This document shows, in pieces, positions 43,128 to 62,481 of a DNA stretch of 64,000 nt. The translations under genes were made by a program, and so were the position numbers. Numbering within the stretch: the stretch's first letter is position 1; each line of letters opens with the position of its first letter. The notes below the pieces were generated by a model. It made no database searches. It was not told where the DNA came from and saw only the letters and a list, made by a program, of their open reading frames with translations. Origin of the DNA: Paenibacillus terricola. Lineage in GTDB: Bacteria > Bacillota > Bacilli > Paenibacillales > Paenibacillaceae. The stretch is from NCBI RefSeq assembly GCF_014779765.1, contig NZ_JACXZA010000002.1, positions 62,001 to 126,000 of the forward strand, written 5' to 3'.

Positions 43128-43721
43128 GTGGTCGATTATGATAAGGTAACGGATTCTATTTTAAGCCGCCATACGAACTCACGACTAATCATTGGGATTG
43201 ACGGGCTAAGTCGATCAGGGAAGACCACCTTTACAGTCGAATTGGGGGAGCGATTGCTTCGACACGGGAAAGCTGTTTGCATCTTCCACATCGACGACTA
43301 CATTGTGGAACGCAAGAAGAGATACGACACTGAATTCGATCAATGGTACGAGTATTACAACCTTCAATGGGATGTTGAACGATTACGTGAACAATTATTC
43401 TCAAAGTTAAGCCAAGCAGAAGAGATAAGCCTTCCCTTCTACGACTCTTGTTTGGATCAATTAGGCGATAAGACTGTTGCCTTATCCAGTGACTGCATTC
43501 TGATTGTTGAAGGTGTATTCCTTCAACGAGCAGAGTGGCGGGACTATTTTGACTTCGTCGTGTATTTGGATTGTCCAAGGGAGAAACGATTCGAACGTGA
43601 ATCTGCATCTGCCAAGGCTAACCTTGACAAATTCGGATTAAGGTATTGGAAAGCTGAAGACTTCTATATGAATGCAATAGCTCCATTAGCCAATGCCGAT
43701 ATGATTATTAGTTCGGAATGA
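43128..43721 (+). CDS. Uridine-kinase-like P-loop kinase
   Basis: A 197-residue P-loop protein with Walker A 'GIDGLSRSGKTTF' (residues 23-35), 'FHIDDYIVERKKRYDTEFDQ' (the uridine kinase/phosphoribulokinase-like base region) and 'CPREKRFERE'. The family phosphorylates uridine or related small molecules; many such Firmicute proteins are uncharacterised. The start is GTG 43128 with GGAGAGGTGAAGG upstream. It is the third gene of the sfp/acetyltransferase run. Confidence 0.85.
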   Translation: MVDYDKVTDSILSRHTNSRLIIGIDGLSRSGKTTFTVELGERLLRHGKAVCIFHIDDYIVERKKRYDTEFDQWYEYYNLQWDVERLREQLFSKLSQAEEISLPFYDSCLDQLGDKTVALSSDCILIVEGVFLQRAEWRDYFDFVVYLDCPREKRFERESASAKANLDKFGLRYWKAEDFYMNAIAPLANADMIISSE

Positions 43722-43730
43722 TCCAAATTA

Positions 43731-43769
43731 GAAGACCGCAGCAGTCCTGACAAGACCGCTGCGGTCTTC
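43731..43769. terminator. Bidirectional terminator
   Basis: Twelve-base perfect arms GAAGACCGCAGC/GCTGCGGTCTTC with a 15-base loop and T-rich ends on both strands. It lies between the convergent kinase and YkuD-like genes. Confidence 0.82.
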
Positions 43770-43771
43770 TT

Positions 43772-44953
43772 TCACTTGCCAGTCGTTACATCAGTAAGCT
43801 CCCATCTCGATTGTGAAGACTTGCGATTGAAATGGAACAGATACGATGACCGCTGCTCGGACTGCTTCATCAGGGTCACGTTGAGCCTTACTTGAGTCGT
43901 TAATGCGCCATTATCAATCGGTTGCCCATCCGATGCGTTTGACTTATGCGGCTTATCGATTCGAATCGTGCGAATATCCGGCATTTGTTTCGTCCATTCC
44001 GCCACTTTGTCAGACGGCATTCCGACTGCAATTTGCGTGAGCAGATAAGGCTCGTCATGATCCATCGCCTCGACAAAGCTTGCTGCAAGAAGAGCCGGGG
44101 AGGCGGTGTCCAAATATTCACGAACCTGGCCTGCAGCCTTGTAGATCATAAGATGATGGGCTACATCCGGTTCATCCGATTTGTGCGTCGTACTTCCGAG
44201 GAAGTGTACGCAGAAATGACCGGAGAAATCATTATCAGGAATCCCATCCCCGCCATGCGGCATACCATTCATGGACGCTGCGATCCAATGTCCATTCGTA
44301 TGAATGAGAACCGCTTTCCGATTCCAGCTCCATTCGCCGCCATAAATTTCTTTCATTATGCGGGAATCTTCTTTCGTTAACGGCTGTACATCCGCATGGT
44401 CGCTGCCTGCTCGCCTTTGCACTCGGAAGGATTTGCCGGAAGCGATGTCGGTAATCGAAAAAATGCCTTTACGCGGCGCCAACTCCCTTGCCTGCGACCA
44501 ATCGATCAGCTTGCCATAATACTGCTCACGAAGCAGTACAGCCAGCAGTCGCAGTTGTTGTGCCGCTTCTGTCGAAATGATGATGCGCTTATGGGCTGTT
44601 TCATCCCATAAGCTGCCTTGTTTCTCCAACCTATATGCTTTCTGCTGGCCTTGCTGCATAATTGTAAGCTCGATGTCGGGATATAAATTCACCTGATTAA
44701 CGGATTCCTGACTAACCTTCTGCAGTGCTTTGGTTATGATCGGACTGTTAATCGTTAGCTGGCTTTCGAGCTGTGCATCCGGATCAGCCCGTACCGTCAT
44801 GATGACCTTCGGGGGCTGAGCAACTGGACGGCGAGCAGCAGCTTCGGTGGAGGCATAGGAATCGTTAGGCAGCAAGATGCCAGCCAGCAGGAAGCTAATG
44901 ATAACAACAAATGCAGTATGACCATTCCGATAGCGATGATGATGCTGCTTCAC
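43772..44953 (-). CDS. Secreted YkuD-like (L,D-transpeptidase-type) protein
   Basis: A 393-residue exported protein. GTG 44953 with AAGGAGGA upstream gives a clean signal peptide ('AFVVIISFLLAGILLPNDSYAS'-type hydrophobic core, split here by position about 14-33). A longer frame from 45142 has no ribosome site and would overlap the divergent vanW gene. In the C-terminal half, 'HTNGHWIAASMNGMPHGG' followed by 'FSGHFCVHFLGSTTH' gives a His/Cys pair of the layout found in YkuD-type transpeptidases, though not the classical 'HGCIR' motif. It probably acts on peptidoglycan; the reaction is an inference. Confidence 0.75.
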   Translation of the reverse strand: MKQHHHRYRNGHTAFVVIISFLLAGILLPNDSYASTEAAARRPVAQPPKVIMTVRADPDAQLESQLTINSPIITKALQKVSQESVNQVNLYPDIELTIMQQGQQKAYRLEKQGSLWDETAHKRIIISTEAAQQLRLLAVLLREQYYGKLIDWSQARELAPRKGIFSITDIASGKSFRVQRRAGSDHADVQPLTKEDSRIMKEIYGGEWSWNRKAVLIHTNGHWIAASMNGMPHGGDGIPDNDFSGHFCVHFLGSTTHKSDEPDVAHHLMIYKAAGQVREYLDTASPALLAASFVEAMDHDEPYLLTQIAVGMPSDKVAEWTKQMPDIRTIRIDKPHKSNASDGQPIDNGALTTQVRLNVTLMKQSEQRSSYLFHFNRKSSQSRWELTDVTTGK

Positions 44954-57309: not shown

Positions 57310-58077
57310 ATGCTGGCAGCCGAACGCTATGAGATGATAGTCCGACTGGTGCAAGAGAAGGGCAGTGTGCGAGTGACGGAGCTGAGCGTCCAATGCGGCG
57401 TTACAGAAGAGACGATTCGCAGGGATTTGGATCGTCTGGAATCAGAGGGACGTCTTCGCCGCTCCCATGGCGGCGCGGTAAGCGTGAAGCAGGAAGGGGC
57501 GTCTCAACCCGAAATACCATATACGCAGCGCGAGATTACGAATGCAGAAGAGAAGCGGCGGATAGCCGAAGAAGCGATTCGCTTCATCGAGCCGAAGGAT
57601 CGGATCCTGCTGGATGCGAGTACGACAGCTTGGTATATGGCGGCCCGACTGCCGGATATTCCGCTGACAGTCTTGACCAACTCGATTAAGGTAGCGACGG
57701 AACTTAGTCAGAAGGAGAAAATCGAGGTCATCGTGATCGGCGGCAAGTTGGCAAACAACTCGCTATCGTTTGTTGGGCCGCTTGCAGAGCGATCATTAGA
57801 AACCTACTATGTGGACAAGCTCTTCCTGTCCGGCAAAGGCGTTCACCTCGAGCGTGGCATTAGCGAATCGAATGAGCTGCAGGCACGTTTGAAGCAGCAG
57901 ATGATTGGCATAGCAGAACGCGTCTTCTTGCTAGCTGACTCGAGCAAGTTCGGCGTCACTTCGTTCACACATGTCGCGGATCTGTCAACAGTGGATACCT
58001 TAGTGACGGACCGCCGCATTTCCCGGGAAACGGCAGACAAGCTGGGCGAGCTTGGTATTAACGTACTGACGGTTTAG
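57310..58077 (+). CDS. DeoR/GlpR-family transcriptional regulator
   Basis: A 255-residue repressor with 'VRVTELSVQCGVTEETIRRD' (HTH), 'RRSHGGAV' (signature) and the sensor domain 'ILLDASTTAWYMAARLPDIP', 'KLFLSGKGVHLERGIS', 'DSSKFGVTSFTHVADLSTVD'. AAGGAG lies 12 bases before ATG 57310. It is a paralogue of the kdu operon DeoR but clearly different. Its effector is presumably a phosphorylated sugar. The palindrome array begins 42 bases after its stop. Confidence 0.92.
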   Translation: MLAAERYEMIVRLVQEKGSVRVTELSVQCGVTEETIRRDLDRLESEGRLRRSHGGAVSVKQEGASQPEIPYTQREITNAEEKRRIAEEAIRFIEPKDRILLDASTTAWYMAARLPDIPLTVLTNSIKVATELSQKEKIEVIVIGGKLANNSLSFVGPLAERSLETYYVDKLFLSGKGVHLERGISESNELQARLKQQMIGIAERVFLLADSSKFGVTSFTHVADLSTVDTLVTDRRISRETADKLGELGINVLTV

Positions 58078-58118
58078 ATGGTTGACGTTACGCGAGGTGA
58101 GGCGAGCTGCTTGGGCCT

Positions 58119-58577
58119 GTAGGTGCAGCAATGCACCTACAGAGTGCGAGAACAATACCGAGTGTGGAATTGTAGGTGCAGAACTGCACCTTCGTGTAGC
58201 TGGCGTATTGCAACGTGGACCTTTAGGTGCAGAAGTGCACCTAAAGGTGGCCGGCGTTCCGGCAAGTGGACTTATAGGTGCAGAATTGCACCTATGGGTG
58301 AGGAAACGGCCAATACCCAAGCTCATAGGTGCAGTTCTGCACCTATGATGGGAGAAATCGCAGCCAAGCAGTTATGTAGGTGCGGAAATGCATCATATGG
58401 AGCGTCATGCGTGCAACCATTCGAGATAAGATGGGGCATCAAGCGAGCAACCAGCGACAATAAGATGCAGAAGTGCAGCGCATGGACCATCAAGCGACTA
58501 TTAGATGTAGTAGTGCATCTAAAGTGCACAATGACATGGATCTCCACTCAAGCAGTATTAAGTTGCAGAAATGCGTC
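58119..58577. repeat. Array of about nine regularly spaced palindromes (TAGGTGCA-NNN-TGCACCTA type)
   Basis: Copies at 58119-58140, 58172-58193, 58221-58246, 58274-58295, 58324-58347, then degenerate ones at 58376-58396, 58463-58479, 58501-58522 and 58561-58577. Each is a near-perfect hairpin with core TAGGTGCAG / TGCACCTA, and the first five repeat about every 50 bases. Flanking pairs vary in a compensating way (G-C, CTT-AAG, A-T, CA-TG). The spacers resemble each other (GTGGAC before copies 3 and 4). There are no cas genes and no unique spacers, so this is not CRISPR. It fills most of the gap between a DeoR gene and lutA. Confidence 0.85.
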
Positions 58578-58685
58578 ATGTAGAGCCGCGCGGCACCTCT
58601 ATTCATTTAACCAGTTCTGTGAAACGTTGAAAACGCATACGTTCAACAGCCGTGCGGACAAGCGAGCTTCTTTTTTACTTTTAAC

Positions 58686-58696
58686 TTGTCTGACAA
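58686..58696 (+). promoter_or_regulatory. Probable LutR (GntR/FadR-type) operator
   Basis: TTGTCTGACAA is a perfect palindrome around a central base and matches the TNGTC-N-GACNA operator pattern of lactate-responsive FadR-subfamily regulators. It lies 87 bases before lutA. Confidence 0.62.
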
Positions 58697-58712
58697 CCTG
58701 ATATCATAAATG

Positions 58713-61770: not shown

Positions 61771-62481
61771 ATGGAGATCGAGAAGCTGGAGAAACGGAAC
61801 CATTACGAGGAAATTACTGAACAAATCCGTGGGATGATTACGAGCGGCAAGCTGAAAGTCGGCGACAAATTGCCCTCCACCAAAGAGATGGCAGAGCGAT
61901 TCGGAGTTGGACGGTCAACGATGCGGGAAGCGCTGAGCGCATTGAAAGCGGTTGGTTTGATCGAAATTCGGCAGGGCGGCGTATGCCGCGTTCTGCGGGA
62001 TCAACCCTTGAGTGAAGCTGCGGGAGCGCTTGACGCATTACAGCTTCAAGGCTCCACACTTCTTGAACTGCTCGAAGCGAGGCAGTCGCTGGAGAGTTCG
62101 AATGCAGCGATTGCTGCTCGCAAAAGGACGGAAGCGGACATTGAGCATTTGAGGTCGATCGTCGATCAGATGCAAGCTGCGGCAGGAGACGATGCGGAAG
62201 GCGAGAGACTTGACCTCGCTTTCCACCAAGGACTTGCATTAGCGACACATAATTCGATTATCGTGCAGCTGTTCGAGACGATCATGCTGCAGACGGCGAA
62301 TGCGATTCGTGATGTTCGCCGTGTTGAAATATATGCCAATCGGGACATTGCGGAGCAATTGTACCGAGAGCACTCTGAGATTCTCGATGCTGTTGTTCGG
62401 GGTAATCCGCAGCAAGCTTCAGATGCAATGCAGGTTCATCTGCAGCATGTTGAGAACATCGTTCATAAGCATGTCAGGTAA
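61771..62481 (+). CDS. lutR: GntR/FadR-subfamily regulator, LutR-like
   Basis: A 236-residue regulator. The winged helix is 'LPSTKEMAERFGVGRSTMRE' and 'GLIEIRQGGVCRV', followed by an FCD all-helical sensor domain ('FHQGLALATHNSIIVQLFET', 'EHSEILDAVVRGNPQQASDA') whose His residues usually bind a metal and an organic acid such as lactate. It lies 27 bases downstream of lutC, in the same orientation, and should repress the lut operon through the palindrome before lutA. In Bacillus subtilis lutR is encoded apart from lutABC, so this linkage supports the assignment. Confidence 0.88.
   Translation: MEIEKLEKRNHYEEITEQIRGMITSGKLKVGDKLPSTKEMAERFGVGRSTMREALSALKAVGLIEIRQGGVCRVLRDQPLSEAAGALDALQLQGSTLLELLEARQSLESSNAAIAARKRTEADIEHLRSIVDQMQAAAGDDAEGERLDLAFHQGLALATHNSIIVQLFETIMLQTANAIRDVRRVEIYANRDIAEQLYREHSEILDAVVRGNPQQASDAMQVHLQHVENIVHKHVR

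Follow-up and report, generated by a model that had tools for sequence, protein, structure and literature searches.

We find that the palindromes upstream of the lactate genes of Paenibacillus terricola are members of a dispersed family which recurs throughout the genome of this species and in its relatives. On the best reading the array arose locally, by tandem amplification of a palindromic element of the Paenibacillaceae, and the partner of this element is probably a dedicated nuclease, a DUF559-like protein with a winged helix. There is good support for the pairing of this protein family with phased palindromes that are private to it. The array was found in a stretch of 64,000 nucleotides, called the window in the following, and positions refer to the window unless a locus or contig is named.

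Palindromes in the lut gap and in other genomes

The first-pass annotation had described about nine evenly spaced palindromes at positions 58119-58577, and this array is real. With up to three mismatches allowed, the motif TAGGTGCANNNNTGCACCTA has six matches in the window, all between 58120 and 58521, where 0.15 are expected; six or more were reached in none of 100 shuffles of the 64-kb window. We count nine dyads. The first five start at 58120, 58173, 58224, 58275 and 58326, and the steps of 53, 51, 51 and 51 bp bear out the distance of 49-55 bases first described. The loop, which had been given as three nucleotides, has four. The dyads read TAGGTGCA-GCAA-TGCACCTA (dyad 1, 58120-58139), TAGGTGCA-GAAC-TGCACCTT (dyad 2, 58173-58192), TAGGTGCA-GAAG-TGCACCTA (dyad 3, 58224-58243, with the longest stem extension of the array), TAGGTGCA-GAAT-TGCACCTA (dyad 4, 58275-58294) and TAGGTGCA-GTTC-TGCACCTA (dyad 5, 58326-58345); dyads 1, 3, 4 and 5 are perfect. 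Together they form a core array on the plus strand (58118-58347) with mostly purine-rich loops (mean 0.70). The later copies decay, as had been noted. Dyad 6 (58377-58396) has three mismatches and keeps the step of 51 bp, and beyond it the spacing is irregular, with the decayed dyads 7 (58462-58481) and 8 (58502-58521; TAGATGTA-GTAG-TGCATCTA) and the strongly decayed dyad 9 (58559-58578). Judged by eye, dyad 7 with its flanks resembles the sole unit of the orthologous gap in P. cellulosilyticus (L154). The GTGGAC block reported ahead of copies 3 and 4 is present; the spacers of the array have a mean identity of 37% (three unit pairs) compared with 32% after shuffling and 36% between different loci.

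The array lies, as described, in a non-coding gap between a regulator and a lactate operon. On its 5′ side the gene of a DeoR-family regulator ends with a stop at 58077, and on its 3′ side follows the gene in the lutA position (58771/58783-59505). LutB of the window matches TIGR00273 above its cut-off. LutA and LutC are named from their gene position, and the LutC-position protein gave no NCBIfam match at E ≤ 1e-10. A GntR/FadR-type regulator is encoded at 61771-62481. Its operator is perhaps CTTGTCTGACAACCTGATA, which is located at 58685-58703 upstream of lutA and, judged by eye, is conserved in the five genomes of the same genus that have a lutA orthologue. The suggestion that the array is an attenuating leader is not supported: an Rfam search with seven sources gave no match, only one unit occupies the DeoR-lutA gap of P. 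cellulosilyticus, and the scan gave no comparable dyad ahead of lutA in G002, G003 and G005, three genomes of the same genus where the neighbouring gene is a different one. A fourth same-genus genome, G004, has no lutA orthologue beyond weak matches. The lut setting of the array looks incidental. Long spurious open frames persist in arrays (58000-58701 of the window and 602-1378 of L116) with peptides such as VGAFLHL and GAELHL, and they may be annotated as proteins in databases. A coding tandem repeat with a unit of 17 amino acids was rejected, since all six frames have stops in some arrays.

In the P. terricola genome 102 copies of the dyad are found with at most one mismatch, and a control motif gives a single one. 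Copies of the core are present both in this genome and in relatives, which contradicts a purely local duplication; the family is dispersed and REP/BIME-like in its behaviour. We read 13 P. terricola loci, the window and 12 others, which were picked by their core and not by spacing. Their period is 51 bp with rare values of 50, 52 and 53 and with irregular steps (46, 60, 66, 85 and 40) at the array edges; L017 and L023 contain just two sites each. A collection of contigs from many genomes was scanned for two phased dyads and 94 stretches were found, 93 of which are titled Paenibacillus, Cohnella or Paenibacillaceae. The remaining one belongs to an Eggerthellales MAG (L129) and is possibly mis-binned; a protein of this contig is 48% identical over 829 amino acids to a protein of a P. 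rubinfantis locus. The viral scan gave one contig (IMG/VR, L152), with two phased dyads near its end. The examined loci contain 666 dyad matches (599 distinct 72-mers) as against two for the control motif. Neighbouring dyads are 51 (306 cases), 50 (65), 61 (43), 52 (9) or 62 (5) bp apart, with few other distances; for most loci the scan pattern had fixed a spacing of 49-53, and a spacing independent of that choice is seen only in the 61/62 class and in the P. terricola arrays, which had been retrieved by their core.

The mean identity of the spacers is 0.80 within arrays (16 arrays), 0.55 between orthologous arrays of P. terricola and P. cellulosilyticus (4 pairs), and 0.36 between separate loci compared with 0.32 for shuffled sequence. 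As the spacers are lost while the dyads and their constant spacing are kept, we infer that the dyads and their distance are maintained or regenerated. The identical repeats and unique spacers of a CRISPR array are not seen: the loops and flanks of the repeats vary and the spacers are alike within most arrays. Units that are alike within arrays, and orthologous arrays that have been homogenised apart, would also fit a neutral process in which a chance palindrome was locally duplicated and is now decaying. We regard this as scarcely credible. The core and the period recur at unrelated loci and in other genera, and in the window the spacers are near random identity, yet four of the dyads are perfect. 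The copy number in the genome, the 94 stretches elsewhere and the 242 and 185 copies of a predicted core (see below) contradict such a process.

Relatives carry an element of about 190 bp which consists of four mirrored dyads at spacings of 50/51, 61/62 and 50/51 bp. Forty such elements are symmetric about their centre, with the consensus GAAATARKTGCA-AATA-TGCAMYTATTTC and with spacers without marked consensus; this four-dyad form has no net orientation. The difference between 61 and 51 is about one helical turn, which would fit a complex of DNA-bound dimers. Among the blastn pairs listed for P. sacheonensis, the matches are about 185-197 bp long and end at the outer dyads, and in these pairs terminal inverted repeats bound a short non-coding element as in a MITE. 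An empty-site search at one P. sacheonensis locus gave matches that covered single flanks only and no syntenic empty site. In P. rubinfantis the elements of L096 and L104 are 85% identical over 287 nt and the flanking sequence is also common to both, which suggests that some copies spread through larger duplications.

The partner gene and its palindromes

A comparison of the genes bordering the arrays revealed one recurring family, with 11 adjacency records (one locus is entered twice and two genes are counted from both sides) from eight genomes, namely P. sacheonensis, P. terrigena, a Paenibacillus MAG, Paenibacillus sp. FSL A5-0031, G370, G375, P. cellulosilyticus and P. terricola. In P. terricola an array stands on either side of the gene (G000:C14, about 43473-44144). 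The gene sits on a different contig from the window array, which counts against the nuclease explanation of the latter. The protein has about 223 amino acids. The DUF559 profile scores above its cut-off in two of six proteins and below it in one, and is absent from the listing in three; weak winged-helix matches cover the C-terminus. D69, E82 and K84 are invariant in six sequences, and this pattern, D-(x)12-E-x-K, agrees with that of PD-(D/E)XK enzymes. An AlphaFold2 model built from five sequences is of moderate confidence (mean pLDDT 76.6, pTM 0.55). Its residues 36-148 align to the catalytic domain of I-Bth0305I (Z 10.4, 97 of 97 residues, rmsd 3.0), residues 34-148 to NGO0050 (Z 9.5) and residues 154-229 to MarR-type and other winged helices (Z about 10); the stretch following E-x-K is poorly modelled. 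The best Foldseek rows are mostly MarR-type, with the nucleases Bax1 and TnsA at E about 1e-3, and PADLOC and PHROGs gave weak matches only. By its modelled fold and its acidic/lysine active-site pattern, which match DUF559 and PD-(D/E)XK proteins, the partner is predicted to be a nuclease.

The protein is present in 299 of 394 family genomes (E ≤ 1e-10), often in several copies. That element-rich genomes rank atop the homologue list is partly circular, as the alignment was built from their proteins. In a sample of the phylum 5 of 348 genomes have the protein (E ≤ 1e-8), four of them Paenibacillaceae.

Seventy gene loci were read, the 30 best and 40 chosen by hand from the listed matches. Seven of these (L179-L185) stem from the discovery genomes, and the fair count is that of the remaining 63. 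A stricter palindrome search gave phased pairs at nine of the first 30 loci; because the half-sites are degenerate, looser tests for phased dyads and for four sites were adopted. Phased similar dyads are found at 28 of the 70 loci (7/7 discovery loci and 21/63 others), at 0/70 in each of five shuffles, and at 0, 1, 0 and 1 loci when four other spacing sets are used. Two of 26 control loci also have them, the window array and the element-bearing L162. The four-site score exceeds the shuffle maximum of 17.3 (140 shuffles) at 47 of the 70 loci, that is 5/7 of the discovery loci and 42/63 of the others; the 23 loci at or below this maximum count against the pairing. Control loci without a known element (n = 23) score 11.0 at most, and control locus L169, which contains a known element, scores 28.7. 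When 11 further loci were scored, six of seven close homologues passed and one failed with 15.3. The other four of the five failing loci are those of a distant homologue, of a homologue from outside the Paenibacillaceae and of two P. terricola paralogues (11.3 and 11.7). L314 (G000:C11:264435-265055) is a distant P. terricola paralogue which is interrupted by a TGA; its four-dyad score is 11.3 and no element adjoins it.

The passing elements lie 3′ of the gene in 41 of 47 cases (38 of 42 outside the discovery loci) and 5′ of it in six, and 22 of the 41 elements on the 3′ side are within -9 to +61 nt of the stop. This position bears on the possibility that the dyads are operators by which the nuclease gene regulates itself, the dispersed copies being titration sites or a regulon. 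The winged-helix domain and the dyads adjoining the gene would suit such operators. The predominance of the 3′ side and the avoidance of divergent promoter gaps (see below) do not, and we consider autoregulation improbable.

The cores differ by nuclease clade or paralogue group. Protein distance and half-site distance correlate (Mantel r 0.486, p 0.0005, 38 loci), where shared ancestry is still included in the correlation; the set comprises 41 loci minus L180, L181 and L186, whose arrays are misregistered by the four-site score. Cores were also used for prediction, with genomes that in both cases were not chosen blind to kinship. The core AACGGCA-N4-TGCCGTT was taken from the sequence next to the gene in G240 and G235. 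It has 242 and 185 copies in these genomes (at most one mismatch), 28 in G354 and 3-9 in five other genomes; the control motif has 1-6. The core AAGCCTGCA-N4-TGCAGGCTT (at most two mismatches) has 20, 13, 16, 27 and 50 copies in five genomes that were picked for cores of this kind; six other genomes have 0-5 copies, and the control has none. G326, which has a related core, contains one copy like the controls, and this counts against the pairing. It seems that every family of repeats has a DNA-cutting protein of its own. Variants of the element are seen as well: one nuclease subclade (L239, L220, L233, L241 and L227) has a 3-nt loop, GGA or GTA cores and spacings of 50-52 and 62, and in three related genomes (L054, L055 and L056) the dyads beside the nuclease gene stand at composite distances with steps of about 243-316 bp.

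Stem pairing, gene context and replication direction

It had been noted that the outer stem bases of the palindromes differ between copies and still pair. Locally this holds. In the window the base just outside the TA pairs in six of six contexts (shuffle 2.0, P 0.013) and the mean stem extension is 2.33 vs 0.67 in shuffles. For the conclusion that a hairpin is maintained, the support is mixed. The base outside the TA is paired in 43 of 56 cases in P. terricola (33.7 in shuffles), in 62 of 81 in P. cellulosilyticus (48.0) and in 59 of 77 in the Cohnella group (48.4); a Cohnella set of 24 sites likewise has 28 pairings vs 21.3 (P 0.016). Against it stand P. sacheonensis, where two variable stem pairs at 80 sites are Watson-Crick in 76 cases vs 82.4 in shuffles (P 0.86), and the G-U cells, which in 54 arrays or elements with tandem gene context are as frequent on the sense strand (50) as on the antisense strand (48). 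Pairing of the base outside the TA does not exceed the shuffles in P. terrigena and P. sacheonensis; in the latter species the next base further out pairs above shuffle (P 0.003). Variable half-site positions of a mixed P. rubinfantis group pair in 17 cases vs 16.7. In a pooled four-dyad set half-site identity is 29 vs 17.1 and 20 vs 12.4 of 80, an excess that may be due to the mixture of species. Judged from these sequence patterns, RNA hairpins are not favoured, and a symmetry-restoring or single-strand DNA hairpin process is possible behind the paired outer stems.

Placement relative to genes was scored with home-made codon-scored gene calls in which errors are likely. The 118 placements of arrays and elements, where a few edge rows repeat a locus, comprise 35 convergent, 55 tandem and 6 divergent ones and 22 at contig or locus edges; a called gene is overlapped in two of the 118, genes mostly inside an array having been set aside. 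With 6 of the 96 scorable placements divergent, the units are nearly always found at the 3′ end of a gene. Among gaps of at least 200 nt, divergent ones make up 5 of 97 with dyads vs 45 of 148 without (p 6e-7), and convergent ones 33 of 97 vs 18 of 148 (p 5e-5).

The location at gene 3′ ends, the stem pairing above shuffle in some genomes and the loops of the 54 tandem-context cases (on the sense strand 31 are purine-rich and 16 pyrimidine-rich) could be taken to mean that the unit acts as a 3′ UTR hairpin of the upstream gene, a terminator or mRNA stabiliser, and that arrays are multi-hairpin RNAs. Such a function is quite improbable in our view. The variable stem positions of P. sacheonensis and the G-U cells speak against it, as do the mirror symmetry of the four-dyad form, the negative Rfam search and the loops of the only two tandem-context arrays where gene and GC skew conflict, which follow the skew.

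As the dyads are palindromic, the loop alone shows a direction. In G235 the plus-strand loops are purine-rich up to 4.1 Mb, where the skew of the sampled sequence is positive, and pyrimidine-rich from 4.5 Mb onwards, where the GC skew is negative. The fit is complete for 68 of 68 informative sites in 37 of 37 clusters; 69 exact sites were listed out of the 185 counted at one mismatch, and sites within an array are not independent. In G240, where twenty 20-kb windows were examined, 57 of 58 sites have loops that follow the replichore. In P. terricola 11 of 12 informative 20-kb windows agree and one, with a single site, is against, besides one tie; at the core array of the window the plus strand has a positive local skew (+0.066 over 20 kb). 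Other species contribute 25 of 29 distinct arrays that agree, three against and one tie, with the skew taken from short loci. Loop direction agrees with the genes in 16 of 20 cases and with the skew in 18 of 20; where gene and skew conflict the loop follows the skew, in two of two cases, and transcription is thus still possible. The 20-kb skews of about 0.02-0.13 seem too small to produce such one-sided loops neutrally. In Firmicutes the G-rich strand is usually in the sense of the leading strand. If this is taken to apply here, the purine loops lie on the lagging-strand template.

An orientation that follows the replichore would also be expected if the dyads serve the host as polar sites for chromosome organisation or fork-associated processes, with the winged-helix protein as a domesticated binder and not a mobiliser. 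Dyads and spacing that are conserved between unrelated spacers point in the same direction, and so do arrays at orthologous places in P. terricola and P. cellulosilyticus (seven locus pairs). Copy number at such places varies widely, however, with 2 vs 18 sites at L023/L135. The distribution is patchy: the window-type core is matched in 20 of 394 family genomes and in none of the same-genus genomes G002-G005. Further, paralogues carry different cores and the four-dyad form lacks net orientation. We consider a host-serving architecture rather unlikely.

Known systems and a possible mechanism

The REP/REPIN sequences are short high-copy extragenic palindromes, arranged as inverted doublets, and each palindrome family is paired with a nuclease-type gene (PMC3116915). 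The present system shares these features. In contrast, the partner described here is a DUF559-like protein and not a Y1 transposase, the unit has four dyads at fixed spacings and the arrays are oriented with replication. A REP-associated transposase had been proposed as a sign of REP membership. No Y1/RAYT gene (PF01797) was found in the P. terricola genome, nor in six of ten other element-bearing genomes. The Y1 genes of the remaining four are by inspection of the ordinary IS200 type, with dyads nearby in one of eight loci read. The Y1 gene near the element of L162 is apparently an IS200 copy and is taken as a coincidence, and a Y1/RAYT mobiliser was rejected. The conserved tag GTAG or CGTC of REP sequences is not kept at the hairpin foot: the four-dyad consensus is GAAATAAGTGCA; GTAG occurs in many P. 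terricola copies, and dyads 3-5 of the window have TTAG or ATAG. On the best reading the system works like REPIN-RAYT, falls outside the RAYT group and is built on an unrelated nuclease.

BIME-2 and other enterobacterial tandem palindromes form arrays at gene 3′ ends, and in this the present arrays resemble them. They differ by the fixed period of 51 bp and by the partner gene, and we know of no sequence in common with BIME-2. In sopC, the centromere of the F plasmid, repeats of comparable length follow one another in tandem, and every repeat includes a palindromic site for a protein; unlike sopC, the dyads are chromosomal, are dispersed over many loci and have another partner protein. With I-Bth0305I, an EDxHD/Vsr-like homing endonuclease, and with DUF559 proteins the partner has in common the predicted fold of the nuclease domain and, in two of six proteins, a DUF559 score above the cut-off. 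It differs from them by the C-terminal winged helix and the adjoining four-dyad element, and the invariant D-(x)12-E-x-K stands where those endonucleases have EDxHD. IS200/IS605 elements use the lagging-strand template (PMC6006769). Hairpin-type recognition sites and the tie to replication direction are the points of likeness; their transposase family is absent from P. terricola, and the Y1 genes of four other genomes are separate genes, with dyads near one of the eight loci read. The open-licence literature gave no matching system, a weak absence as most subscription papers are outside that scope.

We suggest that the element spreads in the following steps. Dimers of the protein would bind the dyads via the winged helix, and evenly spaced dyads would assemble one complex. 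A protein-binding platform, one of the possibilities raised by the first-pass annotation, is likely. The nuclease would then nick or cut the element, perhaps while the lagging-strand template is single-stranded. Repair or slippage could then copy the element to new places and multiply the unit of 51 bp. Copies that stand alone would be non-autonomous parasites, which are tolerated at the 3′ ends of genes. The lut array would have expanded locally next to an older unit and need not play any part in lactate use. Adjacency, copy-number variation, the fork-coupled orientation and analogy suggest that the dyads are moved or amplified by the nuclease. The near-random spacers between separate copies are unlike young transposons and count against mobilisation, and the figure of 20 among 394 family genomes with a match to the window-type core also weighs against this reading.

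More tentatively, there may be a lineage-wide selfish class in which a DUF559-like nuclease with a winged helix and its own four-dyad element spread together. The element would be amplified at replication forks from the lagging-strand template, its 51-bp arrays would record fork direction and many genomes would hold several pairs of private sequence.

If this is true, populations of REPIN-like palindromes would have originated a second time and independently, on a nuclease fold unrelated to RAYT. Paralogues with different cores would be natural pairs of protein and recognition sequence from which winged-helix specificity could be learned. Finally, arrays that report the direction of replication would offer a direct route to test the origin of repeats at replication forks.
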